A stretch of 32,669 nucleotides of DNA from a virus, in the IMG/VR virus record IMGVR_UViG_3300045918_000046, positions 1-32,669 of that record, one strand, 5' to 3'. The notes under the pieces are model-generated. The model saw only the letters and a program-made list of their open reading frames with translations, ran no database searches and was not told where the DNA came from. This document shows positions 3,267 to 21,477 of the stretch, piece after piece (position 1 is the stretch's first letter; every line of letters starts with the position of its first letter). Position numbers and translations under genes: made by a program.

Positions 3267-6200
3267 TTACATTGGGCCTTGCGCTGGAGGCGCTACAGCT
3301 CCAGCGCTCCTTCCTTGGCCTGCATCAACTGGGGCACCTTCTCCTCCCATATCTTCTCCACCACTCATATCATCTATATTACCTAAATCTGACGAAATTC
3401 CACCAGATGATATACCAACACTACGTAGACTTGAATCTACTGGTTCTGATACCCCTAAGTCTGCATGTTCTTCTGCCCACATTTCCTCATTCTCTTGCAT
3501 TTCTTCTTCGCTTAAATCTAAATATCGTTTAAGTATAAACCGCTTTGACAAATAAGGTACTTGCTCTACTTGTTGGAAAGCTTGAATGCGTTCGGTATCT
3601 ATTTGCACTTGACGGTATTTAGTAAAATTTTGTGGCTCATTAAATTGTAAATCAAATACACTATTATCAATATTAATACCACGGAAACGCATAAACATCT
3701 TAAATTCTTTATCTAACGTGGAAGCAATTAAACTCTGCAAACGTTTACAATACTGATTAAAACGCCATTCTTGAATCATTGCTTGACCTACTTTACCATC
3801 GGTATAGTTATTTGACGATTCTTCTTTATCGCCAGCAGGTAAATAACTTGTTGGAATTCTTAAACCGCGGAATAATCTATTTGAGAAGTACCTTAAATCC
3901 GTAATTTCCCCCAAATTACTGTTTTTAGTGAATATCCCGCTTTCCAGAGCGAAGGTATGGTAATTATGATATTTTTCATCTACGTCAATAGTTAACGTAC
4001 CTACTTCTATTGGCTCTTTTAGATATTCTATTGATACAATCTTATGGTTATATAATTCTACTTCTTTTCTAAATTGTTTCCAATTTTTATATCCGTGTCG
4101 AGTTACGCCCATTGTTAATTGGCTTTCTGTAATTCCCTCTTTATTCCAATTGGCACACACAGTATTATTATTAAGATTCAAATAATAGTTTAAGAATTCA
4201 GAATCTGAATTTAAAATATTAACAATCATTGCACATGTCATTTGATGCGTAGATTTACCTTTTGCAATAGATTGCACCTTATCTAATACATACTTGTCTA
4301 TAATAACTCTTTGATGACCATAATATTTTTCTCGCACACCAGGCGAATTCATAAATTTTGATGACTTTGCTCCAATTTTAGCATTACGTTCAAAATATTC
4401 AGGTGTGTCTTTGAACTTTGCCCAACCTTCTTTTTGTGCGGTTGTATATTTTTCGTAATATTCTAGGTCTTGCAATAACTCATTATGAGTATCAGATGCA
4501 ATAATAAATGCTTTTCTAGAATTATCTGCTCGAATTTCTCGTTCTTCATCTGTATAATTTTCCCAAACTTCAGATGAACGTTTAGCTAAATAATCCGTAT
4601 ATTTTTTCCAAATAATTGGATCTTTCTTCATTTCTTCTAATTTTGCTTTTGCGGCTGCTGTTCCTAATTTTTGCGCTTCTGTTGAAAATCCTATAGATTG
4701 ATGATATTCCTTATGATCAAGCCAATTCATACGCACTAAATTTTTAGGAGAATTATTATATCTATTAACATCCTTATGATGTGTAACATCTTTACCTAGA
4801 TTTGAATATTTTTCATTAAAGATCATAGGTTCTATAATACCAGAATCCTTTAATTCACGAACCACCATACGATGAACAAATTCCCACTTTCTAGTATCAT
4901 TTTGATATACTTGGGTATATTCACGCTTTTTATTCTGACCTAAATCGGCATTTTGAATATTAAATGGTATCATACTCTCACCAACCAACAGATCTTTTGA
5001 TTCAACAAATCCTTTTCCGATAATTGGAAATTTATGATCTGGCGTTACGATAAGTTCTTTACCATTATCTAAAGTAATTTTTAATACTTTAGCAGATTTT
5101 TGAGTTATGCCTGCCCACGAAATAATACCAGGAACAACATGCCCAGTCTCTGGGTCACAAGAATAGACCCAATTTTCTTTTCCATCTTTATATTCTTGTG
5201 TTAATTCTGTTAGATTTAAAGTTCTACCATCTAATAATGGTACTTTGGAGTCCATAGCTAAACATCCGCCTGGTAGTATCTCAACTGATGATCCTCTACC
5301 GTTTTCGGTTTGTGGAAAGAAAAAGTCCTCGTTCATGGAGATCGGATTATATGATGTATCCATCATTGAATTTCCATTTCCAGATTGACTTGGCATTCTA
5401 CGTTGATGTACTTCGTTTTTAACACGTTCAACAAACGCCATAGCTAAATGACTTGGCATATTGCCTACATCAACTTTAAATACACGTCTTTCTGGAGCAC
5501 GTTGCAAACGATAAATTATTACAGCATCTTCTAATAATTCTATTTGTTTGAACACCTTAAAAATAGTTTCAAGCACAGAATTACCAAACGGCCAGGCTAT
5601 ATCTAAACCTTCTGCTAAACTAAGATGTACAATATGTTCTGCATTTATTACAGCTTCGTTTTTACTATTTGAGAATCTAGACCCGCCGGTTTGCACCGAA
5701 GCTTGGGAAGGAGATGTATACGAATCGGTTGCCCCACCAATCTGTGGCTGGTTCATGTAAGTATCAGAGGTTGTTACTGCCGTAACAGTTAGATTTTGCA
5801 GATTGGGATTAAGGTCCTTGATTGCATATTGTTCTGGAGATTTTCCGTCTGATTCATTTACTATAACCTTAGTAACTTTTGACATCTCAACCCATAATAA
5901 TTTAAATGTTTCTGGATCACGCACAAATACTTGATCTCCATATTTTATAACATTACGGAATAACTTAAATATACGCTTGTCAAATTGGTTTAATTTATAC
6001 CATTGTTTAAGTTGGTCTTTGATTATTTTAAGCTCATTGTCGGTTGGTTTTTCATTAAATACTAAGTCAAATGCTGTTCCGTTTTCAATATTAACTTGTG
6101 TGGAGAACTCAGCTAGAATATCTAATGCTGCATTTACTAATTCGTGGGCATCCATCTGTTCATATTGATTATATCTAGTTACTCTATTTGGATGCCCTAT

Positions 6201-6335
6201 ATAAACATCAGGTAGATTACTTTGATAATTTTTCATACCAAAGGATCCTCCTGTTGCACTACTAAATCCATTTATCGGACTAATGTTGCCATTAGACCCA
6301 AAATTTGGCGACTTGAAGTGTTTTTTCCATGACAT
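3267..6335 (-). CDS. gp20: Portal vertex protein gp20, interrupted by an intein
   Basis: The 1022-aa precursor contains a portal protein of about 574 aa (T4 gp20 is 524 aa) and a 448-aa intein. Extein 1 (residues 1-357) has portal motifs such as KYGDQVFVRDPE, HLSLAEGLDIAWPFGNSVLE and LEDAVIIYRLQRAPERRVF, and ends in VEILPGG. Extein 2 (from residue 806) resumes with SNLGEITDLRYFSNRLFRGL, giving the uninterrupted family motif LPGGSNLGEI after splicing. The C-terminus is Gly-, Asp- and Pro-rich. The portal dodecamer forms the head's DNA entry vertex, nucleates prohead assembly and docks terminase and neck. The gene starts six bases after the stop of the upstream homing endonuclease with AAGGA as ribosome binding site, so it may depend on read-through from that gene. 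Confidence 0.96.
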   Translation of the reverse strand: MSWKKHFKSPNFGSNGNISPINGFSSATGGSFGMKNYQSNLPDVYIGHPNRVTRYNQYEQMDAHELVNAALDILAEFSTQVNIENGTAFDLVFNEKPTDNELKIIKDQLKQWYKLNQFDKRIFKLFRNVIKYGDQVFVRDPETFKLLWVEMSKVTKVIVNESDGKSPEQYAIKDLNPNLQNLTVTAVTTSDTYMNQPQIGGATDSYTSPSQASVQTGGSRFSNSKNEAVINAEHIVHLSLAEGLDIAWPFGNSVLETIFKVFKQIELLEDAVIIYRLQRAPERRVFKVDVGNMPSHLAMAFVERVKNEVHQRRMPSQSGNGNSMMDTSYNPISMNEDFFFPQTENGRGSSVEILPGGCLAMDSKVPLLDGRTLNLTELTQEYKDGKENWVYSCDPETGHVVPGIISWAGITQKSAKVLKITLDNGKELIVTPDHKFPIIGKGFVESKDLLVGESMIPFNIQNADLGQNKKREYTQVYQNDTRKWEFVHRMVVRELKDSGIIEPMIFNEKYSNLGKDVTHHKDVNRYNNSPKNLVRMNWLDHKEYHQSIGFSTEAQKLGTAAAKAKLEEMKKDPIIWKKYTDYLAKRSSEVWENYTDEEREIRADNSRKAFIIASDTHNELLQDLEYYEKYTTAQKEGWAKFKDTPEYFERNAKIGAKSSKFMNSPGVREKYYGHQRVIIDKYVLDKVQSIAKGKSTHQMTCAMIVNILNSDSEFLNYYLNLNNNTVCANWNKEGITESQLTMGVTRHGYKNWKQFRKEVELYNHKIVSIEYLKEPIEVGTLTIDVDEKYHNYHTFALESGIFTKNSNLGEITDLRYFSNRLFRGLRIPTSYLPAGDKEESSNNYTDGKVGQAMIQEWRFNQYCKRLQSLIASTLDKEFKMFMRFRGINIDNSVFDLQFNEPQNFTKYRQVQIDTERIQAFQQVEQVPYLSKRFILKRYLDLSEEEMQENEEMWAEEHADLGVSEPVDSSLRSVGISSGGISSDLGNIDDMSGGEDMGGEGAPVDAGQGRSAGAVAPPAQGPM
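3921..5264 (-). mobile_element. Intein in portal gene, with HNH endonuclease domain
   Basis: Precursor residues 358-805. Block A starts at Cys358 (CLAMDSKVPLLDGRTL), block B is LIVTPDHKFPI (His434), and blocks F/G are VDEKYHNYHTFALESG then IFTKN with terminal Asn805; the +1 residue is Ser806. The penultimate residue is Lys instead of the usual His. Between blocks B and F is a roughly 330-aa insert with an HNH-type nuclease motif (VTHHKDVNRYNNSPKNLVRM, residues 518-537), then several helices and a probable DNA-binding region. This makes it a full-length, potentially homing-competent intein. It sits at a conserved portal site, where a homing element is hardest to lose. Confidence 0.93.
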
Positions 6336-6341
6336 ATATTT

Positions 6342-8054
6342 TTAATCCTTTAGTTTAGTACCATTGTCAACAATGCTAGGAGAATACACCCAAGACGATT
6401 GTCCACAATCCCATATACGGTCGTATCCAAGTTCTTGCATCATTTCCCACCCTGTTAAATTTTTATTTTCTATAAGATTAGATATCTTATGTTTTTGAAA
6501 TTTCATACGATTAAACCTATTTTTATAATCTGTGTAAGTATACCCTATGGTAGTTGCTACGTTAACAAATTTAAGATCTTCATATAATTTCCCATTACTC
6601 CATCTCAAATCGCAATAACTAATAATATTTTTTGGATTAAAATGCTTAACGTAATATTTAAATAGTTTACTGGCACCACCAACTATAATATAACTTAGTT
6701 TATTGCAGAAACGTAGTAATTCTATAGACTCTTCATTTTTAAACCTAGCTTTACCAAAAGACATAAACGACACTATTTGATCTTCATAGTATAAACCTAG
6801 TGCTATTGTAGATCCTACTGAACCCTGTAAATGATTAGCATTTAAAAACTCTGTTTGCTCTTTTTTACCTACTACACGGATTTGACATTTACGTGCGTAA
6901 ATTTTTGTAGACATACCTAGAGCATTTTTTATTTTACTTATTACAATATCTTTCTTATATATCCATTCATCGCTAAAAATAGTAAGCAACGTAATACCGC
7001 GTTTGATACACTCTATGCGCTTTAATGAATGATATTTTGAGTCTCTCCCAGAAGATAATTCGGAATGCCAATAAAGGCCGTCGTATTCAATAGCTAAATT
7101 AAATTTTGGTATAAAAATGTCTAATTCTTTAGGTGCTATAATATTTCTACTATTAGAAATATATTCCACTTGTAAGGAATCTAAAAATCGACATAATTCT
7201 TCCTCCTCTTTGCTTTTATCCGGCTGTTTATATAAATGATGCACCTGATGTTTTTTATTAAAATATCTCAAATATGTATCCCCAATACCTAACTTTTCAC
7301 AAGCTTCAGCTCTGGTTAAACCAGTAATAATTTTTGAAAACATTGCATAGTCATTTAAACAATCCATTACTTCTTTTCCAATATGTATCTGCATAGACGC
7401 AGATACACCGTGCAATTTTAATAAAGAACTTCTTCTATTATTAGTAATAGCTATTATCTCTTCTTCTGATCTTTGTGCTAACGTATTCCTAAACTTCTTA
7501 TTTATTGTAGTAGCCTGCAGCGGAAACTCTGCACCGTACTTCTTTAAGTTAGTCGCTTTGACCTTTTCTTGCTGTGCCTTTACCTTCATATGATGTATTT
7601 CGCCGTATTTTTCTAAACAGGCGCGTTGTCTATTTTCTTTAGATTCTCTACTATATGATTTACAATTAACCCCTAACTTACATGTTCGTCTATACCCAAC
7701 ATCAACCGAGGTGAATACACAACTATTACCGCAGGCACATATATGTTTATTATTACCGATCGATAAGTAGTATTCTTCAGATAATTTATACCTTGCCGAA
7801 GACTTACACTTACTCCCTAGTTTACAATAATCATGATATCCAGACGTATATGTATAAAATTCTCGTTTATTGCCACATTTGCATTTAAGAGGACGTCCAT
7901 TTTTAACTATATATACCATTTCTGACATATTTTTTGGGTTATATTCTATAGTGATAGTAGATAACCAATGTAATAATTCTTTATTATTACGTATTGACAT
8001 CATTGCAGCACCAATCGGTTTTGATTCTAAAATAAAGTTTAAAATGTGTTCCAT
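6342..8054 (-). CDS. Free-standing homing endonuclease, Vsr/EDxHD-like
   Basis: A 570-aa protein. N-terminal: two zinc-ribbon-like modules (CKCGNKREF...YCKLGSKC, residues 58-83; CACGNSCVF...CKLGVNC, residues 106-131). Middle: LEKYG/LKKYG repeats (Tyr150 and Tyr173, 23 residues apart) and a helix-turn-helix-like stretch (LTRAEACEKLGIGDTYLRYF, 246-265). Nuclease core: KELDIFIPKFNLAIEYDG then LYWHSE (309-332), with Glu310, Asp312, Glu323 and His330 fitting the Vsr-related EDxHD homing endonucleases. C-terminal: ARKCQIRVV...NHLQGSVGS...GKARF...VGGASKLFKYY, a domain seen in related phage proteins, possibly GNAT-like. It is paralogous to the protein at 18239-19972. It lies between tape measure and portal genes with short gaps. 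No good ribosome binding site is visible, so expression may be low. Confidence 0.82.
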   Translation of the reverse strand: MEHILNFILESKPIGAAMMSIRNNKELLHWLSTITIEYNPKNMSEMVYIVKNGRPLKCKCGNKREFYTYTSGYHDYCKLGSKCKSSARYKLSEEYYLSIGNNKHICACGNSCVFTSVDVGYRRTCKLGVNCKSYSRESKENRQRACLEKYGEIHHMKVKAQQEKVKATNLKKYGAEFPLQATTINKKFRNTLAQRSEEEIIAITNNRRSSLLKLHGVSASMQIHIGKEVMDCLNDYAMFSKIITGLTRAEACEKLGIGDTYLRYFNKKHQVHHLYKQPDKSKEEEELCRFLDSLQVEYISNSRNIIAPKELDIFIPKFNLAIEYDGLYWHSELSSGRDSKYHSLKRIECIKRGITLLTIFSDEWIYKKDIVISKIKNALGMSTKIYARKCQIRVVGKKEQTEFLNANHLQGSVGSTIALGLYYEDQIVSFMSFGKARFKNEESIELLRFCNKLSYIIVGGASKLFKYYVKHFNPKNIISYCDLRWSNGKLYEDLKFVNVATTIGYTYTDYKNRFNRMKFQKHKISNLIENKNLTGWEMMQELGYDRIWDCGQSSWVYSPSIVDNGTKLKD

Positions 8055-14625: not shown

Positions 14626-16635
14626 TTACTTATCCCTTTCTAACGTTTCGTCAGTGTCAATCCACGACGTAAATCCACCCGATTTTACTACACGCAAAAT
14701 ATTTCCAACACGACTAGTTAGTTCGTCCCTATGTGAGATTAACCATATACCTTTAAATGTATCTCGTGCCATACGTTTTAGTATACCCATGGCGTTCTCT
14801 ACACCGTTAGGATCCAAACCCCCGTCCAATATTTCGTCGATCATTAACAGATTAATCGGTTGATACAATGACTCGTATACGTCACGGAATGCTAACGATA
14901 ATGAGATTATAATACGTGTTGCTTCTCCTCGACTACAATTATCGAAATCTAAATCTCTACCAAGTTCTTCTATAGTTACAGACAAATCGTTCTCGAAGAC
15001 TACAGTGTGAGGTAAACCCATCTTATCTAGATAATGCGATAACCGAGAGTTTAAGTAGGTTAAATTTTGATCAATAATACGCTTACGTATAAAACTATCT
15101 TTGTTAGTTAGTAATTTAAGTAAAAACTCTTGATGATCCTTTAACTTAGTAGTATCGTTTATAATTTGATAATTTACTTCGGCTAATGCGGTAGTTTCCA
15201 TTTCTGTAATTTGTTCTGAGAAAGGATTATCGGTTGAAACTTTATCCTCCAGTTGGCGTTGTAAATGACTTACTGTTGTTTTATGATGTGTTGCTTCCTC
15301 AACTTTGTTATAATATGTTTTTGGTTTTGCGCATAAAACACCTATTGAGTTTAATCCCTCTTTAACTTCAGAAATATATAACGTATGTTCTTTAGACTTA
15401 GATTGGTGTTCTTCTAATAGAGATATCTTAGAAGATAATAACTGTTCTTGCGTGGTATTATGTATATCCTGACCGCAAGAGTGACACTTATGATTCATTA
15501 GATTTTCTATCTCAGGCAATAATTTAGTTAGACCTTTCTCTTCTCGATCAAGGTCTTTTTGTGCCCTAGATAAAGCAATATCTAGATCTGTAATGTCCTT
15601 TTTCTTTTGATTATATTCGTTTAGTAATTGATGAGAAGTAAGTTCAGCGTCAATATCAACTTTAATTAATTCTTCTAATTCAATAGACAAGGCGTTAATT
15701 TCTGTATTATGCTTTGCTTGCCAAGATTGTTGTCTACGTTTTAATGATTCTATTTGCTCGTCTATTTTCTTGTTTGCTTCTACAGTAGCAGAAATACGAT
15801 ATTCTTCACTTGTTATTAAATCTTTAGATTTTTTAACCTGCTCTTTAATTAACTCTGCTTTTTCGCTTAGTGCTGTAATTCCAAGTAATTGTTCTATAAT
15901 AGAACGTTGTTCGCTTACTTTTAAGCGTAAAAAGGGTTCAGTATAAGTGTTTAGAGCAACAATATGTCTAAACATGTCGTGAGACATATCTAATATCTTA
16001 TTGATCTCATGTTGAGTTTCTCTAGAGTCTCCTTGTGCATCGTCGTCTTTAGCTTCAAATGCTGTATCCCCTTTGTATAGTTTTAATATACCGGGTCTAC
16101 GTCCGCGCTCAATCCTATATATAATACCATCTTTTTCAAACTCAACTGTAACTAACATATTCTTACCGTTAGTACGATTTATTAAGTTGTCTTTTTTGAT
16201 ATTTGATATAGCTTGGCCATATAAAGCATAACTAAGAGTTTGTAAAATAGTTGAGTTGTGCGACACAATGTCATTGGCATAAAATTCATGTACATCAGCT
16301 ACTTGAAGATCATATAGATCTTCGACTAAATCTAATTTACGTAACGTTTGAATTTGTTCGTATCCAGTTGTAGTTTTAATAGATGAACTTAGATCTAACT
16401 TATATGTTTCGACCCACTTATCATCAGACAAAAGTAGATGATTAGGGGAACATTCTATGAGTTTATTATTTACCGTTGTTACTTGCATGACTGCAGAGTC
16501 ATATGCAGTAACATCTGCAAACTCAATAGTTTTATACCCAAATTGTGTCCGAACATCTAATTGGCCTATTTCATCTGGATAAGAATTATAAAAATCTACT
16601 ACGTCTTTAATTGTGCATTTCATCATGTAACCCAT
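14626..16635 (-). CDS. gp46: gp46 recombination ATPase, C-terminal part with C-intein
   Basis: A 669-aa product: 127 aa of C-terminal split intein, then 542 aa of gp46. The extein begins STILQTLSYALYGQ, the rest of a Walker A helix whose first half is encoded at 16892-17146. It then has long coiled coils, a zinc hook CHSCG (residues 384-388), the ABC signature region CSRGEATRIIISLSLAFRD, Walker B LLMIDEILDGGLDPNG, and the switch His in GIWLISHRDEL. With gp47 it forms the SbcCD/Rad50-Mre11-type nuclease for recombination-dependent replication and host DNA processing. Ligated length is about 595 aa (T4 gp46: 560). Neither part can bind ATP properly without trans-splicing. The start ATG is at 16635, or 16626 nearby; neither has a strong ribosome binding site. 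Confidence 0.93.
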   Translation of the reverse strand: MGYMMKCTIKDVVDFYNSYPDEIGQLDVRTQFGYKTIEFADVTAYDSAVMQVTTVNNKLIECSPNHLLLSDDKWVETYKLDLSSSIKTTTGYEQIQTLRKLDLVEDLYDLQVADVHEFYANDIVSHNSTILQTLSYALYGQAISNIKKDNLINRTNGKNMLVTVEFEKDGIIYRIERGRRPGILKLYKGDTAFEAKDDDAQGDSRETQHEINKILDMSHDMFRHIVALNTYTEPFLRLKVSEQRSIIEQLLGITALSEKAELIKEQVKKSKDLITSEEYRISATVEANKKIDEQIESLKRRQQSWQAKHNTEINALSIELEELIKVDIDAELTSHQLLNEYNQKKKDITDLDIALSRAQKDLDREEKGLTKLLPEIENLMNHKCHSCGQDIHNTTQEQLLSSKISLLEEHQSKSKEHTLYISEVKEGLNSIGVLCAKPKTYYNKVEEATHHKTTVSHLQRQLEDKVSTDNPFSEQITEMETTALAEVNYQIINDTTKLKDHQEFLLKLLTNKDSFIRKRIIDQNLTYLNSRLSHYLDKMGLPHTVVFENDLSVTIEELGRDLDFDNCSRGEATRIIISLSLAFRDVYESLYQPINLLMIDEILDGGLDPNGVENAMGILKRMARDTFKGIWLISHRDELTSRVGNILRVVKSGGFTSWIDTDETLERDK
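16255..16635 (-). mobile_element. C-terminal half of naturally split intein
   Basis: Residues 1-127 of the downstream gp46 gene. Recognisable are block B, KLIECSPNHLLLS (residues 58-70, His66), and blocks F/G, EDLYDLQVADVHEFYANDIV and SHN (about 105-127), with terminal Asn127, penultimate His126 and +1 Ser. It includes the region normally in the N-terminal part (TIKDVVDFYNSYP, QFGYKTIEFADV), so the split is very early. No endonuclease domain is present. Confidence 0.92.
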
Positions 16636-16891
16636 TCAAATAATTATCAATTTCTGTTGTGGTTTTTAACAGTATATAGCATTAAATAGTTGTTGTTTCT
16701 TTAGCATTTTAATTTGATACTCTTTATTGTTAGTAAACATCGGATATATCTCGATATGTCATTAATAAAAAATCGTACCGCATATTAGAGTTAGGGTAGT
16801 ACTCGACAATCTTTATTATAGCCATCTTCTTCTGTTTGTGTAGAAGAAGTGAAATAGCATAATTTTCACTAACCGTAACGATGCGGAAAAG
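16636..16891 (-). other. Spacer between the two gp46 genes
   Basis: A 256-base gap that breaks gp46. It holds a hairpin CTTCTTCT/AGAAGAAG (16826-16849) and a 31-codon ORF directly after it on the minus strand (16825 to 16730, MAIIKIVEYYPNSNMRYDF...), without a good ribosome binding site. The two gp46 frames differ and stop codons intervene, so this is not an intact intein with one sequencing error. Unlike many reported fractured genes, no homing endonuclease gene lies in the gap. Confidence 0.6.
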
Positions 16892-17146
16892 CTATAAATT
16901 TTTCTTATTTTGCATAAATAGTTTAAATTTTTCTTCAGTTTTAATATTTTTAAACGTAATGTCTATATTAGTGCCTCCACGAAGGCATTTTCCGGTACCA
17001 TTTCGACTTCCAGAATCTTCCCCACCCAAGTCAACATTTTCGCCTAAGACTAGCGTTAATTCGTTACGGTTTAAAGTTATAGCTTGCGAGCAATTTCCAA
17101 TAGATAGGAAATTCTTTGATGTTATTGATAAGATATTTAGTGCCAT
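16892..17146 (-). CDS. gp46: gp46 N-terminal part with N-intein
   Basis: An 84-aa product. Residues 1-53 are the gp46 N-terminus: ITSKNFLSIGNCSQAI, then LTLVLGENVDLGG and SGSRNGTGK, which is the Walker A loop up to its Lys. Residues 54-84 are a 31-aa N-intein starting at Cys54 (CLRGGTNIDITFKNIK) and ending at a TAG. Splicing would restore NGTGK-ST. The ATG at 17146 follows the gp47 stop by three bases, so it is coupled to gp47. The gene is separated from the C-terminal part by 256 bases and lies in a different frame. Confidence 0.92.
   Translation of the reverse strand: MALNILSITSKNFLSIGNCSQAITLNRNELTLVLGENVDLGGEDSGSRNGTGKCLRGGTNIDITFKNIKTEEKFKLFMQNKKNL
16895..16987 (-). mobile_element. N-terminal half of naturally split intein (31 aa)
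   Basis: CLRGGTNIDITFK matches intein block A: the catalytic Cys1 is followed by the usual short turn and beta strand. The remainder is Lys/Phe-rich (KTEEKFKLFMQNKKNL). The piece is far shorter than the roughly 100-residue N-inteins of canonical split inteins and resembles the atypically split class with 25-35 residue N-parts. Confidence 0.88.
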
Positions 17147-17149
17147 TTA

Positions 17150-18166
17150 TTATAGGTTCCTATATATACTAAGTAAAAACTTTGGGTCGTAATGATCGCT
17201 AACAATATTAGTTAATTCCTCACTTACTATAGTGTCCACAGATTTGAACTCTATATTTCCGGGCTGTATATCACCTCCCTCAGTGGCTTTCTTAATAGGT
17301 AGTAATGATATTTCTCGTAAGCTGTATTTCCCTGCAAACTCTTCTTTAATAAAGTTTGATTCTTCGTAAGAAATGTCAATATCTACATTGACGCGAACAT
17401 GCATCTGTGGTTTCAATATGGTTTCGGCATTCTGTATAAGGTTACTTAACGTAAATACACGATATTTAGGTTGATCTAACCAAGAATGAAACTTTGGTTC
17501 CTTACCCCATTCTAATATCATACAACCGCGCTCATCATCGCCAGCATCTCCGTAATTATGCGGAAAACAATTGCCAATATATGTGATATTGGTTCCTGTT
17601 TGACGTTTATGAAAATGCCCACTATACACAGATTCAACACCTTTGAAGTGATCTTGTTGTATCTCTCCTGAGTCTGGCATTTGCACCATAGCATTCATAT
17701 AAAAGTGCGGTAACTCAAAATGCCCAAAACAATACTTAGCACTTATCTTTTCTATCTTTTTATGCTCGTCTTTAACTAGCCAAGGTACTATAGATACATC
17801 TCCTTGTTTGAAGAAATTATTAACAATGTTAATATTTGGTATATGTTTTGCCCATTCTGCGCTTTGGATGTCTCTTCTATCCCTAAAAAAGAGATCGTGG
17901 TTACCAGGTATAAAATAAGTTTGGTTAAATGTTTTTGATAGTAACTCTAAACCTTGTACTGCATAATTCATAGTGCGTAGGTTCATTGTAGAACGGTTAT
18001 TATGGTAATCGCCTAAAAAGAAACAAGTTTCACAACCTTGTTCTTTACCTAATTTACACATCCAATTAATAAAATCAATACAGTCTTTATTATGAAGCTC
18101 ACTATTGGTCTTCAAACCTAAATGTATATCTGTGAAAACTATAGCTTTTTTGAATAAATTACTCAT
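17150..18166 (-). CDS. gp47: gp47 recombination endonuclease subunit (Mre11/SbcD-like)
   Basis: A 338-aa calcineurin-like metallophosphoesterase with the full motif set: FTDIHLG (Asp13, His15), LGDYHNN (Asp53, His55, Asn56), IPGNHDLF (Asn89, His90), FGHFE (His149) and SGHFHKR (His184, His186). T4 gp47 is 339 aa. It is the nuclease partner of gp46 in DNA end processing and recombination-dependent replication. It starts at an ATG with GGGAG close upstream, and its stop is three bases from the gp46 N-part start. No intein is present. The gene follows the free-standing homing endonuclease across 72 AT-rich bases holding a TTGATAT/ATATCAA hairpin (about 18205-18223). Confidence 0.96.
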   Translation of the reverse strand: MSNLFKKAIVFTDIHLGLKTNSELHNKDCIDFINWMCKLGKEQGCETCFFLGDYHNNRSTMNLRTMNYAVQGLELLSKTFNQTYFIPGNHDLFFRDRRDIQSAEWAKHIPNINIVNNFFKQGDVSIVPWLVKDEHKKIEKISAKYCFGHFELPHFYMNAMVQMPDSGEIQQDHFKGVESVYSGHFHKRQTGTNITYIGNCFPHNYGDAGDDERGCMILEWGKEPKFHSWLDQPKYRVFTLSNLIQNAETILKPQMHVRVNVDIDISYEESNFIKEEFAGKYSLREISLLPIKKATEGGDIQPGNIEFKSVDTIVSEELTNIVSDHYDPKFLLSIYRNL

Positions 18167-18238: not shown

Positions 18239-19972
18239 TTATTTAGTCATCTTAAATACTAATTGCCCACAATCCCATCCTCGATAATAACCATTATTGT
18301 TCATATTGTCATTGGCTGTTAGATTGGCATCAAATATTGGTAACCGGTCTTTCAACAAGTGTTTTTGCCATTGTTGTCTAGATCCAACAGGATAACCATT
18401 ATGTATATATACATATCCGGGTGAAGTAATATGCGTTTGTTTGAAATTTAATCGAGTATATACGTTCCCATTTGAGAAACGTCGTTGACAATAACTAATT
18501 AAAGTATCTCCGTCAACCATAAAATTCTTTTTAAAGTAAGATAGTATTTTTGAAGCACCACCAATTACAGCGTTACCTCTTTTTGCAGCTAACCGTAATA
18601 ACTCCCAATTAACATTTTTGTTATATCTACTTCTACCAAAAGTACCAATTATTAATAATTGATTAGTAGAATCATATAGTCCAATATTAACTTTACTCTG
18701 ACATGATCCTTGTATGTGATTATTGATTAGGAATAATTTTTTGTCTTCATTATTAACAACGTCAATAGATAATTTTCGTGCAAATACTTTAGACGCTAAT
18801 CCTAACTTATGTTCAACCTTGCTAATAATTAGATCCCAGTTTCCGTTTAGTTCCCAATCCCAGAAGTGCCATAACTCATACCCTGCCGCATTTGCTAATA
18901 TTGTTTTATTCAGATGATAGTTTGGGTCGGACTTCATTTCTTCGGAATGCCAATACGCACCGTTGATTTCAATACCCAACTTGATATCAGGAAAAACTAT
19001 ATCTATTTCTAATGGTTTAATTATTAACCTATTTTTAAGTTGTATATTGATTCCTAAAGCTGTGAAATGTGATAAAAACTTTTTCTCTAAGTATGTAGTA
19101 TTATACCTTTTAATATCTATGTTAAAATGTCGAAAAATATTACATAAGTAACTAGGCGAAATATTAAGCACATCACTCAGCTCGCCAATGCATAAAGATT
19201 GATTTTGTTCATATAACCAATCTTTATTTGTGATTTTATCATATACACCAGGAGCCCAATGTTGATCTTTTCTAGTTTTGATTGATTTAGATTTAATACT
19301 ATTATCTTGCATAACAAAATCAACACCGTAACGATCTTGACATGTATTCTTTGCTTTCTGTTGAGTTTCTTGTAATTGCATAGGAAATTCCGTGCCATAT
19401 TTCTGTAAACATGAATTTCTTATTGTCTGGATTACTGTTGGCGCAGAAAATGCTTGATCTACACCATAACGTTCTTGACACGTGTCCTTCATTTTTTGCC
19501 GTATAACGTCTGATTGAGCAGGGCGTTCAACACCATACCTCTCTAAATTTGTTTCTTTAGATTTTTGTAAATATTCTTCTGTTTGACTATAGTGTGTCTT
19601 GCCAAATTTTTCTAAGGAGGTGTTTTCTACCTTATCCTTCCATTCAGCTGTCTGAGAAAACCATTCAACGCCGTATTTTTCTAATGATGTTTCTTTTCGT
19701 TGAACTTCGGTATATACCGCAGTACATCTTTTAGAACAGTATTTTCTATAATCTCTTTTATCTGGATGCCATTCTAATAAGTTACCACACTTACATGTTG
19801 GTATAAGGTCTGTCCGAAGCTCGTAATGATGTAATATTTGACGAGGTAGAATAATACCTTTTTGATAATAATGTTCTAAATCTAACCATAAGATTGATTT
19901 TTTAAGTATCTGTAGATTAAGATAATATAGAGATTTTAATCTAGTTAATTCGGTTTCATTAATAAATGTCAT
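18239..19972 (-). CDS. Free-standing homing endonuclease, Vsr/EDxHD-like, with 23-aa repeats
   Basis: A 577-aa paralogue of the protein at 6342-8054. A zinc ribbon (CKCGNLLEWHP...YCSKRC, residues 60-83) is followed by six repeats of the form LEKYGVExxxQ; the Tyr/Phe-Gly pairs fall at residues 100, 123, 146, 169, 192 and 215, an exact 23-residue period. Next is a helix-turn-helix-like segment (LCIGELSDVLNISPSYLCNI, 260-279). The nuclease core is LEIDIVFPDIKLGIEINGAY then WHSEE (321-345), with Glu322, Asp324, Glu335 and His342. The C-terminus carries FARKLSIDVV, NHIQGSCQSK, GRSRYN and VIGGASKILSYF as in its paralogue. It lies between gp55 (mini-intein) and gp47-gp46 (split intein), neither of which has its own endonuclease. 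Confidence 0.84.
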   Translation of the reverse strand: MTFINETELTRLKSLYYLNLQILKKSILWLDLEHYYQKGIILPRQILHHYELRTDLIPTCKCGNLLEWHPDKRDYRKYCSKRCTAVYTEVQRKETSLEKYGVEWFSQTAEWKDKVENTSLEKFGKTHYSQTEEYLQKSKETNLERYGVERPAQSDVIRQKMKDTCQERYGVDQAFSAPTVIQTIRNSCLQKYGTEFPMQLQETQQKAKNTCQDRYGVDFVMQDNSIKSKSIKTRKDQHWAPGVYDKITNKDWLYEQNQSLCIGELSDVLNISPSYLCNIFRHFNIDIKRYNTTYLEKKFLSHFTALGINIQLKNRLIIKPLEIDIVFPDIKLGIEINGAYWHSEEMKSDPNYHLNKTILANAAGYELWHFWDWELNGNWDLIISKVEHKLGLASKVFARKLSIDVVNNEDKKLFLINNHIQGSCQSKVNIGLYDSTNQLLIIGTFGRSRYNKNVNWELLRLAAKRGNAVIGGASKILSYFKKNFMVDGDTLISYCQRRFSNGNVYTRLNFKQTHITSPGYVYIHNGYPVGSRQQWQKHLLKDRLPIFDANLTANDNMNNNGYYRGWDCGQLVFKMTK

Positions 19973-20049: not shown

Positions 20050-21477
20050 TTATTCTTCGTAATGCCCGCCGCCGTCCGATGAAATATGTCCCCCTCCAGA
20101 CATTTGTCTACTAAAACTAGGCGATAATCCATTTGCTTCTAATATATCATCACGTATGTTTTGGCTTTTCTTTTCTACATTTAATACTCCGCAGAATGAA
20201 TTCTGTAGTATCCGTGTGAAATAAGCAAATGGGTTATTAGACATCGCCTCATTAAATTGTAAGCCAACCATAGTTAGTTGTAGTAATGATTGTGATCTCA
20301 TCTCCTCTACATAAGTGTTGCCAGTTAAGTAAATCGTATTGTTACGTCGAGCCATAAAGCAGCCGTATTCGGTTTTGGGGCACCATACCATACCTTTATA
20401 ATCAACGGTTGGTTGATTTTGATCTCCGTTTAAGTTGCTTAATGTAACATTGTGTCCGAAACTTATAGAACTTGCTTTAGATGAAATTGCAACTTTAGAA
20501 AGAGCTAAACTAAGATTTTCATCAAGCTCCAATTGTGAATAATTGCCTGATAATATAATAGTGTCGGTGTTTAGTATGTGATTAACTTTAATTAAGCCTC
20601 TATCTGTTACAAATTTATGTTCTGGTGTAACTAGAGCATCAATAACGTCCGACGTTAGATGGTGCATTTTGCCATCAAACTCGTCACGAAAAATTGATTT
20701 TATACTTGACCATTTTAAATCACCTTCCGAATAAGATAGTATGGTATCATCTTCGTTAATTTGATCAATCCCTAACCAACCACGTTTAGTTAATGCTTCG
20801 GTTTGGTCGTCAACACAGTACCCTCTCCAGTTAGATCTAGTTGAATAGCGTTCGCACAGTTTTATAAACATAAGAGCTAGTTTATTAGTAATCTGCCCAT
20901 GATCTTTAGAAAATTTTCCAGTAACTAAATCACCTTGCCAATGACTTTTTCCTATTAGCTCAGGTACAAAATTCTCATCTAAACGATAATGATGATAGGG
21001 AGGGAAATTAACACGGATGTACTTAGTTGGTGCAGGAGGAAGAATATCTGGAATAGCTGCATCATATTCGGTTTCTGTAATAATTAAATCCTCAACAACG
21101 TCGTCGAAGATAATCTTGTTCTTTTTACCCTTAGCTGCCTTTGGCTTTGCTGCAGGCGCCTCTGGAATATGATCCCAAGTCATTACTCTAAAAACAACAT
21201 CGTGAGGAGATACATATTCTGGACCAATGACAGTTACATCTGATTTAGATGCATTAGCATTTACTAATAAATATTCTGCTTGAGCAATCTTAGTTAGTCT
21301 ATCAGCGCGTGCTAGTCTACCTTCATCTACGTTACGTAACACGTCATCTATTGTTTTAACAATAATATCGTAGTCGGCGTATTCGGGTTTATTATAACTA
21401 CTGTAAGAGGACTTACTTTTATGTATTTCTTTCATTAAATCTTTATTATTTAAGTAATTTTGTCTTTTGACAACCAT
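20050..21477 (-). CDS. gp55: Late-transcription sigma factor gp55 with mini-intein
   Basis: The 475-aa precursor consists of a 308-aa extein and a 167-aa intein (residues 221-387). The N-terminus (NYLNNKDLMKEIHKSK) and the core KLALMFIKLCERYSTRSNW, RGY then TYVEEMRSQSLLQ and NPFAYFTRILQNSF match the sigma region-2-like core of T4 gp55, which with gp33/gp45 directs RNA polymerase to late promoters. T4 gp55 is only 185 aa; the extra length is mostly residues 75-190, including a Lys/Ala-rich linker (AAKPKAAKGKKNK). The ATG at 21477 has AAGGA upstream. Its promoter targets are presumably the ATAAATA boxes in this window. Until the intein is spliced out, the core is interrupted, so late transcription may depend on splicing. 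Confidence 0.9.
   Translation of the reverse strand: MVVKRQNYLNNKDLMKEIHKSKSSYSSYNKPEYADYDIIVKTIDDVLRNVDEGRLARADRLTKIAQAEYLLVNANASKSDVTVIGPEYVSPHDVVFRVMTWDHIPEAPAAKPKAAKGKKNKIIFDDVVEDLIITETEYDAAIPDILPPAPTKYIRVNFPPYHHYRLDENFVPELIGKSHWQGDLVTGKFSKDHGQITNKLALMFIKLCERYSTRSNWRGYCVDDQTEALTKRGWLGIDQINEDDTILSYSEGDLKWSSIKSIFRDEFDGKMHHLTSDVIDALVTPEHKFVTDRGLIKVNHILNTDTIILSGNYSQLELDENLSLALSKVAISSKASSISFGHNVTLSNLNGDQNQPTVDYKGMVWCPKTEYGCFMARRNNTIYLTGNTYVEEMRSQSLLQLTMVGLQFNEAMSNNPFAYFTRILQNSFCGVLNVEKKSQNIRDDILEANGLSPSFSRQMSGGGHISSDGGGHYEE
20317..20817 (-). mobile_element. Mini-intein in gp55
   Basis: Residues 221-387: block A CVDDQTEALTKRGWLGI, block B ALVTPEHKFVT (His287), block F PTVDYKGMVWCPKTE and GCFMARRNN, block G TIYLTGN with terminal Asn387; the +1 residue is Thr388. 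The penultimate residue is Gly instead of His. At 167 aa there is no room for a homing endonuclease, so it must be moved by another endonuclease or be a degraded, fixed element. Confidence 0.93.

Follow-up and report, generated by a model that had tools for sequence, protein, structure and literature searches.

A gp46 gene fractured in its Walker A motif, probably joined by trans-splicing of a VidaL-like split intein, in a viral metagenomic fragment

In 2009 Dassa et al. reportedly described, mainly from phages, genes that a split intein breaks in two and whose halves flank a free-standing, Vsr-related endonuclease gene. The split PolB intein of Pseudomonas phage MIJ3 also interrupts a fractured phage gene with an endonuclease gene between its halves; its split is canonical, with blocks A to N4 in the N-part, and its block A starts with Ser (PMC6892783). 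Atypically split inteins have published N-intein (IntN) lengths of 15-37 amino acids (aa), and natural short-N splits fall after strand 2 (VidaL, PolB16) or after helix 1 (AceL-TerL, GOS-TerL) (PMC13014065). Here we analyse the gene of the DNA-repair ATPase gp46 of an uncultured T4-like phage in a viral fragment of 32,669 nucleotides, IMG/VR record IMGVR_UViG_3300045918_000046 (the window, meaning this whole stretch), and its relatives sought in IMG/VR. With a probability of about 0.91, we read two of its genes as a fractured gp46 joined by trans-splicing of a horizontally acquired, mobile, VidaL-like intein that is split and lacks an endonuclease gene. Its relatives at this site are either contiguous or split around a free-standing gene for a probably Vsr-like endonuclease. 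The latter share with MIJ3 an endonuclease gene placed between the halves; their host gene is a different one. Fractured genes and atypically split inteins are already known kinds, to which the gp46 case adds an unusually complete evolutionary series. No gp46 split intein was found in the literature searched; the 2009 fractured-gene survey lies outside that search and may list gp46.

All features of the locus are on the minus strand. The N-gene (16892-17146, 84 aa) consists of the start of gp46, the IntN and a stop codon (16892-16894), and the C-gene (14626-16635, 669 aa) of the C-intein (IntC) and the rest of gp46. The gp46 N-extein (16988..17146) has 53 aa and ends within Walker A at RNGTGK; the C-extein (14626..16254) has 542 aa plus the stop and begins with Ser+1 (16252-16254), the sequence after IntC being STILQTLSYALYG (STILQ...) and then the remainder of gp46. 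In the PHROG 77 (SbcC/gp46) profile the N-gene match covers columns 295-333 and the C-gene match starts at column 334 and extends to 954 (E 2e-85), in the register of uninterrupted relatives. Directly upstream of the N-gene lies gp47, the SbcD/Mre11-like partner nuclease (17150..18166; PHROG 100, E 6e-63). Walker A in the N-part, the C-terminal ATPase part and the adjoining gp47 identify the gene as gp46 / SbcC-Rad50, a conserved enzyme gene present in two pieces through a split intein and in exact register.

The original prediction had described two genes in different frames, 256 bp apart, the first ending in NGTGK and a 31-aa N-intein with Cys1; its coordinates, frames and lengths are all correct, and the translation and the PHROG 77 boundary bear out the N-gene product. 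The IntN (CLRGGTNIDITFKNIKTEEKFKLFMQNKKNL, 16895..16987) starts with Cys1, which is Cys54 of that product (16985-16987), and shares the pattern CLRGxTNIDIxF...TxEKFKxFM with its relative L134. The IntC (16255..16635, at most 127 aa, ending HEFYANDIVSHN) is supported by Pfam Intein_splicing (PF14890), which matches the end of the C-part with E 4.8e-6, under its curated cut-off, by a match to VidaL and by alignment with the window's own intein family (lineage B). Its block B His66 (16438-16440), penultimate His126 and Asn127 (16255-16257) complete, with Cys1 and Ser+1, the class 1 intein residue set. The predicted 127-aa C-intein ending in SHN before ST is right in its end and junction, while translation may begin at Met4 or Met5 and the length then be 123-124 aa; the IntC of relatives has 121-125 aa. 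Two genes with an IntN of 31 aa and an IntC of no more than 127 aa make this an atypically split intein.

Uninterrupted gp46 alleles and further examples of the same split were both found in IMG/VR. The 80 viral loci closest to the C-gene include 78 that read continuously through NGTGK|TT at exactly the predicted junction and two (L018 and L019) in which gp46 is fractured at the same point. The closest relative (L002) has an uninterrupted gp46 whose C-extein is 67-68% identical to that of the window; an HNH-type endonuclease-like gene (L002:1269-1871) lies directly upstream of it. The +1 residue is Thr in all 78 empty sites and Ser in the window and the lineage-B hosts. The exact register of the uninterrupted alleles confirms the break between the P-loop Lys and Ser, as do the homologous inteins, both split and contiguous, found at this site, and the latter family supports the fractured gene with its atypical split.

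Lineage B was collected by searches in which the queries were the window IntC and an alignment of its relatives; its members represent four stages: contiguous, split with endonuclease, split with decayed endonuclease, and split without one. L139 and L144 are contiguous gp46 mini-inteins of 147 and 142 aa in a single open frame. L131 and L145/L146 are split, with gap open reading frames (ORFs) of 366 and 375 aa that belong to the ORF family of a second lineage, A (E 2e-109 and 5e-63). In the split forms L147 and L143 the endonuclease ORF survives as remnants (E 5e-37 and 1.5e-8); in L134 and L140, likewise split, the gaps measure 195 and 35 bp and no endonuclease is detectable in them. Conservation extends to Cys1, the block B His, block F HEFYAND and SHN|S. 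In L132 the N-part is absent from the contig and the IntC half alone is present; upstream of it in this 17.4-kb contig (L132:1-7941) are a TnpB-like ORF and, on the opposite strand, a GIY-YIG-like gene. In L134 a helicase-like (UvsW-type) gene upstream of gp47 (L134:468-2366) carries a contiguous mini-intein at its P-loop, ending IIHHN|SGKS. A candidate with the pattern GTNGTGKC (L135) was rejected as an unrelated frame, and the lineage-B alignment gave 17 pattern matches and no relatives in bacterial and archaeal genomes.

Lineage A includes L018 and L019, whose gp46 insert comprises an IntN of 33 aa, a free-standing ORF of 368 aa and an IntC of 124 aa. At the DNA level, a degenerate pattern encoding G[S/A]RNGTGK-Cys retrieved 45 stretches with Cys after the P-loop Lys, every one of them gp46. 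Their N-parts measure 16-39 aa wherever the end is present (in two the DNA piece ends earlier), the 16-aa case being the frameshifted L102. The insert is complete in 35 of the 45: 31 have an open ORF of 336-369 aa overlapping the half genes, two a frameshifted ORF (L102, L116) and two an ORF mostly lost with its last codons kept (L091, L125). The ORF has a weak match to the REase MTES_1575 family (E 0.0026), contains the core IIEYNGDFWH and probably encodes a Vsr-like endonuclease. In those diverged pairs that allowed its calculation, the ratio of nonsynonymous to synonymous substitution rates (dN/dS) of the ORF is 0.09-0.20, indicating purifying selection. Between L018 and L093, dS is about 0 in IntN, ORF and IntC and about 2.2 in the C-extein; because the inserts are almost identical while the C-exteins have diverged, this is a clear sign of a mobile and recently homed IntN-ORF-IntC cassette.

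The gap of the window (16636..16891, 256 bp) contains no intact endonuclease ORF, with stops in all frames. It therefore departs from Dassa-type fractured genes, where a free-standing endonuclease gene lies between the halves, as it does in most relatives. The earlier observation that no endonuclease gene lies in the gap stands for the window and does not extend to the family, in which most members have such a gene and several others have visibly lost theirs. A broader profile of the relatives' endonuclease family found no remnant in the window gap (E 0.5 or worse), and the same test detected remnants in the L143 and L147 gaps. A decayed frame (16637..16816, minus strand) resembles the open frame of the L134 gap (IKIVEYYPNSNMRYDF...ILLKTTTEIDNYL) with a score of 74, compared with at most 47 in 500 shuffles. 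Because the L134 frame runs to its end across the IntC start codon, as lineage-A endonuclease genes do, the decayed frame is perhaps the 3' tail of a lost inserted gene. It gave no match in Pfam, only two chance-level matches in phages, nothing beyond itself in viral contigs and a weak match to an unknown PHROG, 29170 (E 0.002). The window is an endonuclease-less split form, and the ancestor of its own element probably carried an endonuclease.

The AlphaFold model of L139, whose IntC is 55-56% identical to that of the window, is a HINT domain with a predicted local distance difference test (pLDDT) score of 93.3. Its best solved match is VidaL (E 5e-10, template modelling scores 0.77/0.83), which is also the best PDB match of the window IntC by sequence (6vgv, E 6.7e-7). 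On this model the window split follows a short helix (20-26) and precedes strand 31-33 and helix 34-43. The lineage-A counterpart of this last helix (28-41 in a readthrough model of L091) would lie inside the IntN, with the break after it; that model is moderate (pLDDT 69) and was used only for the order of strands and helices. The breaks fall on opposite sides of the same helix, matching both published types, which suggests two separate splitting events at one insertion site. Like the window intein, VidaL is Cys-dependent, has a short IntN and is split before the first long helix; its IntN has 16 aa and ends right after strand 2 (PMC13014065), whereas that of the window has 31 aa with an extra short helix and lies in gp46. 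IntC similarity and fold support kinship with VidaL, the exact split position differing and the tree being built without VidaL. AceL-TerL and GOS-TerL, with an IntN of 25 and 37 aa, are split after helix 1 like gp46 lineage A, but their host is terminase; the window intein is in gp46, belongs to lineage B and is split before that helix. The lineage-A IntC matches the TerL-derived consensus CatC weakly and is 41-48% identical to contiguous terminase mini-inteins of Ackermannviridae, which occupy the same P-loop position (QSGK|TT).

The IntC tree places the window within lineage B (96/90), beside the contiguous L139 (97/90), whereas the extein tree pairs it with the intein-less L002 (100/100), among lineage-A hosts. 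The window IntC is 44-56% identical to most lineage-B members and 33-35% to L145 and L147; the C-exteins of the window and the lineage-B hosts share 19-25%. Against lineage A and the TerL inteins, the window intein has identities of 21-31% and 24-28%, respectively. An IntC similarity so far above that of the C-extein indicates that the window intein was acquired horizontally from a distant gp46, and Ser+1, found in lineage-B hosts in place of the Thr of empty sites, fits that origin. On whether L139 is the ancestral or a re-fused form, the IntC tree and the shared gap frame disagree, and either order of events may apply. We give even odds to a broader scenario, in which the P-loop Lys|Ser/Thr site of gp46 was taken by two intein lineages, split independently on opposite sides of one helix and each accompanied by the same endonuclease family, and in which the surviving stages form a natural series showing how atypically split inteins arise, by the entry of a free-standing endonuclease gene that breaks up a mini-intein and afterwards disappears.

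Class 1 intein chemistry is an established basis for the proposed splicing steps. The N-gene product (gp46 1-53 and the 31-aa IntN) and the C-gene product (IntC and 542 residues) would associate into one HINT fold; Cys1 would attack the Lys-Cys bond and take over the N-extein, the chain would transfer to Ser+1, and cyclisation of Asn127 would release a 595-aa gp46 with an intact Walker A (NGTGK-ST). The unspliced halves should be inactive, because the break falls between the P-loop Lys and Ser. The proposal that the ATPase forms only by trans-splicing agrees with the presence of one gp46 in each of 10 related contigs of 64-289 kb, from which complete dependence of gp46 activity on splicing is likely in the window phage; it remains an inference, the window record being a 32.7-kb fragment.

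Several points weigh against trans-splicing as the way in which gp46 is made here. Splicing by the window allele is itself something we infer from sequence, the fold evidence comes from the contiguous relative L139, and no clear Shine-Dalgarno sequence was found ahead of the IntC start. The element could be decaying after the loss of its endonuclease, though all catalytic residues remain, and an intact second gp46 might lie elsewhere in the genome, given the fragmentary record.

The alternative that survives best keeps splicing as real and makes it a conditional switch on gp46 activity, more than a by-product of a selfish element. A P-loop insertion should leave the unspliced halves inactive, and conditional splicing is known in other inteins, such as that of mycobacterial DnaB, reported as a redox sensor (PMC6195587); the pattern of transfer and of endonuclease gain and loss nevertheless fits a selfish element, and with no sign of regulation at this locus we regard a switch as unlikely. 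Less probable still is a defunct pseudogene, in which the middle of the intein was deleted, the halves no longer splice and gp46 is supplied elsewhere or dispensable. The decayed gap frame, the IntC start without a clear ribosome site and the partial coverage of the genome would suit it, but both halves are open and in register with every catalytic residue and the full extein kept, endonuclease-less splits with intact halves recur (L091, L125, L134, L140, L143), and the related contigs have their single gp46. A group I/II intron or a programmed frameshift has very little in its favour beyond the interruption of a T4-type phage gene, group I introns being frequent in such genes: Rfam has no match in the window, the insert carries intein motifs at both ends and is homologous to contiguous inteins at the same site, and with stops in every frame a simple frameshift is excluded. 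The 733-bp insert does not divide evenly by 3, and the three frames of the gap contain 5, 6 and 7 stops, which leaves no room for a single base error as the cause of the broken gp46. An assembly error or chimera is equally hard to credit, even with a single metagenomic record and a relative (L102) that looks frameshifted, since no single base change opens the window frame and the same split is repeated in dozens of contigs.

We return to trans-splicing of a mobile intein as the preferred account, for which other phages offer further comparisons. The gp46 of Salicola phage SCTP-2 (L126:1918-4683) has a contiguous intein at the same point (NGIGK|TTIING), a third occupant of the site; it lies in one open frame, starts with Ala1 and has about 330 aa, and a search with the window intein does not recognise any kinship. 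In the same phage a UvsX-like protein (record 204, L129:2249-4219) contains two contiguous inteins, one of them just before an SGKS P-loop. In isolated phages, no gp46 split intein of either lineage was seen among the matches listed, where lineage A retrieves terminase inteins and the window IntC only weak, distant inteins.

Few naturally split inteins have a short N-part, and those that do are valued for protein labelling; the gp46 set adds many diverse ones with two split sites. With nearly every evolutionary stage present at one site, the way in which split inteins originate can be tested directly, by comparing the contiguous L139 intein with the split intein of the window. In addition, the broken enzyme is half of the T4-type recombination nuclease, which may itself take part in homing, gp46 and gp47 being listed among possible homing functions (PMC2988022).

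The window has other inteins and endonuclease genes, all on the minus strand. The gp55 late sigma factor homologue (20050-21477) contains a contiguous intein of about 167 aa (CVDDQTEAL...YLTGN, 20317-20817) at RGY|TY, which is missing from relatives such as L018, and the portal protein gp20 (3267-6335) contains one of about 448 aa (3921-5264) with an HNH-like region (weak HNH_3 match). A further two genes, large and free-standing (18239-19972 and 6342-8054, 577 and 570 aa), encode homing endonucleases and gave no match to the profile of the gp46-gap endonuclease; both belong to PHROG 3339 and have DUF7487 repeats and a Vsr/MTES_1575-like core. Both neighbour intein-bearing genes, the first adjoining gp47 and gp55 and the second gp20.
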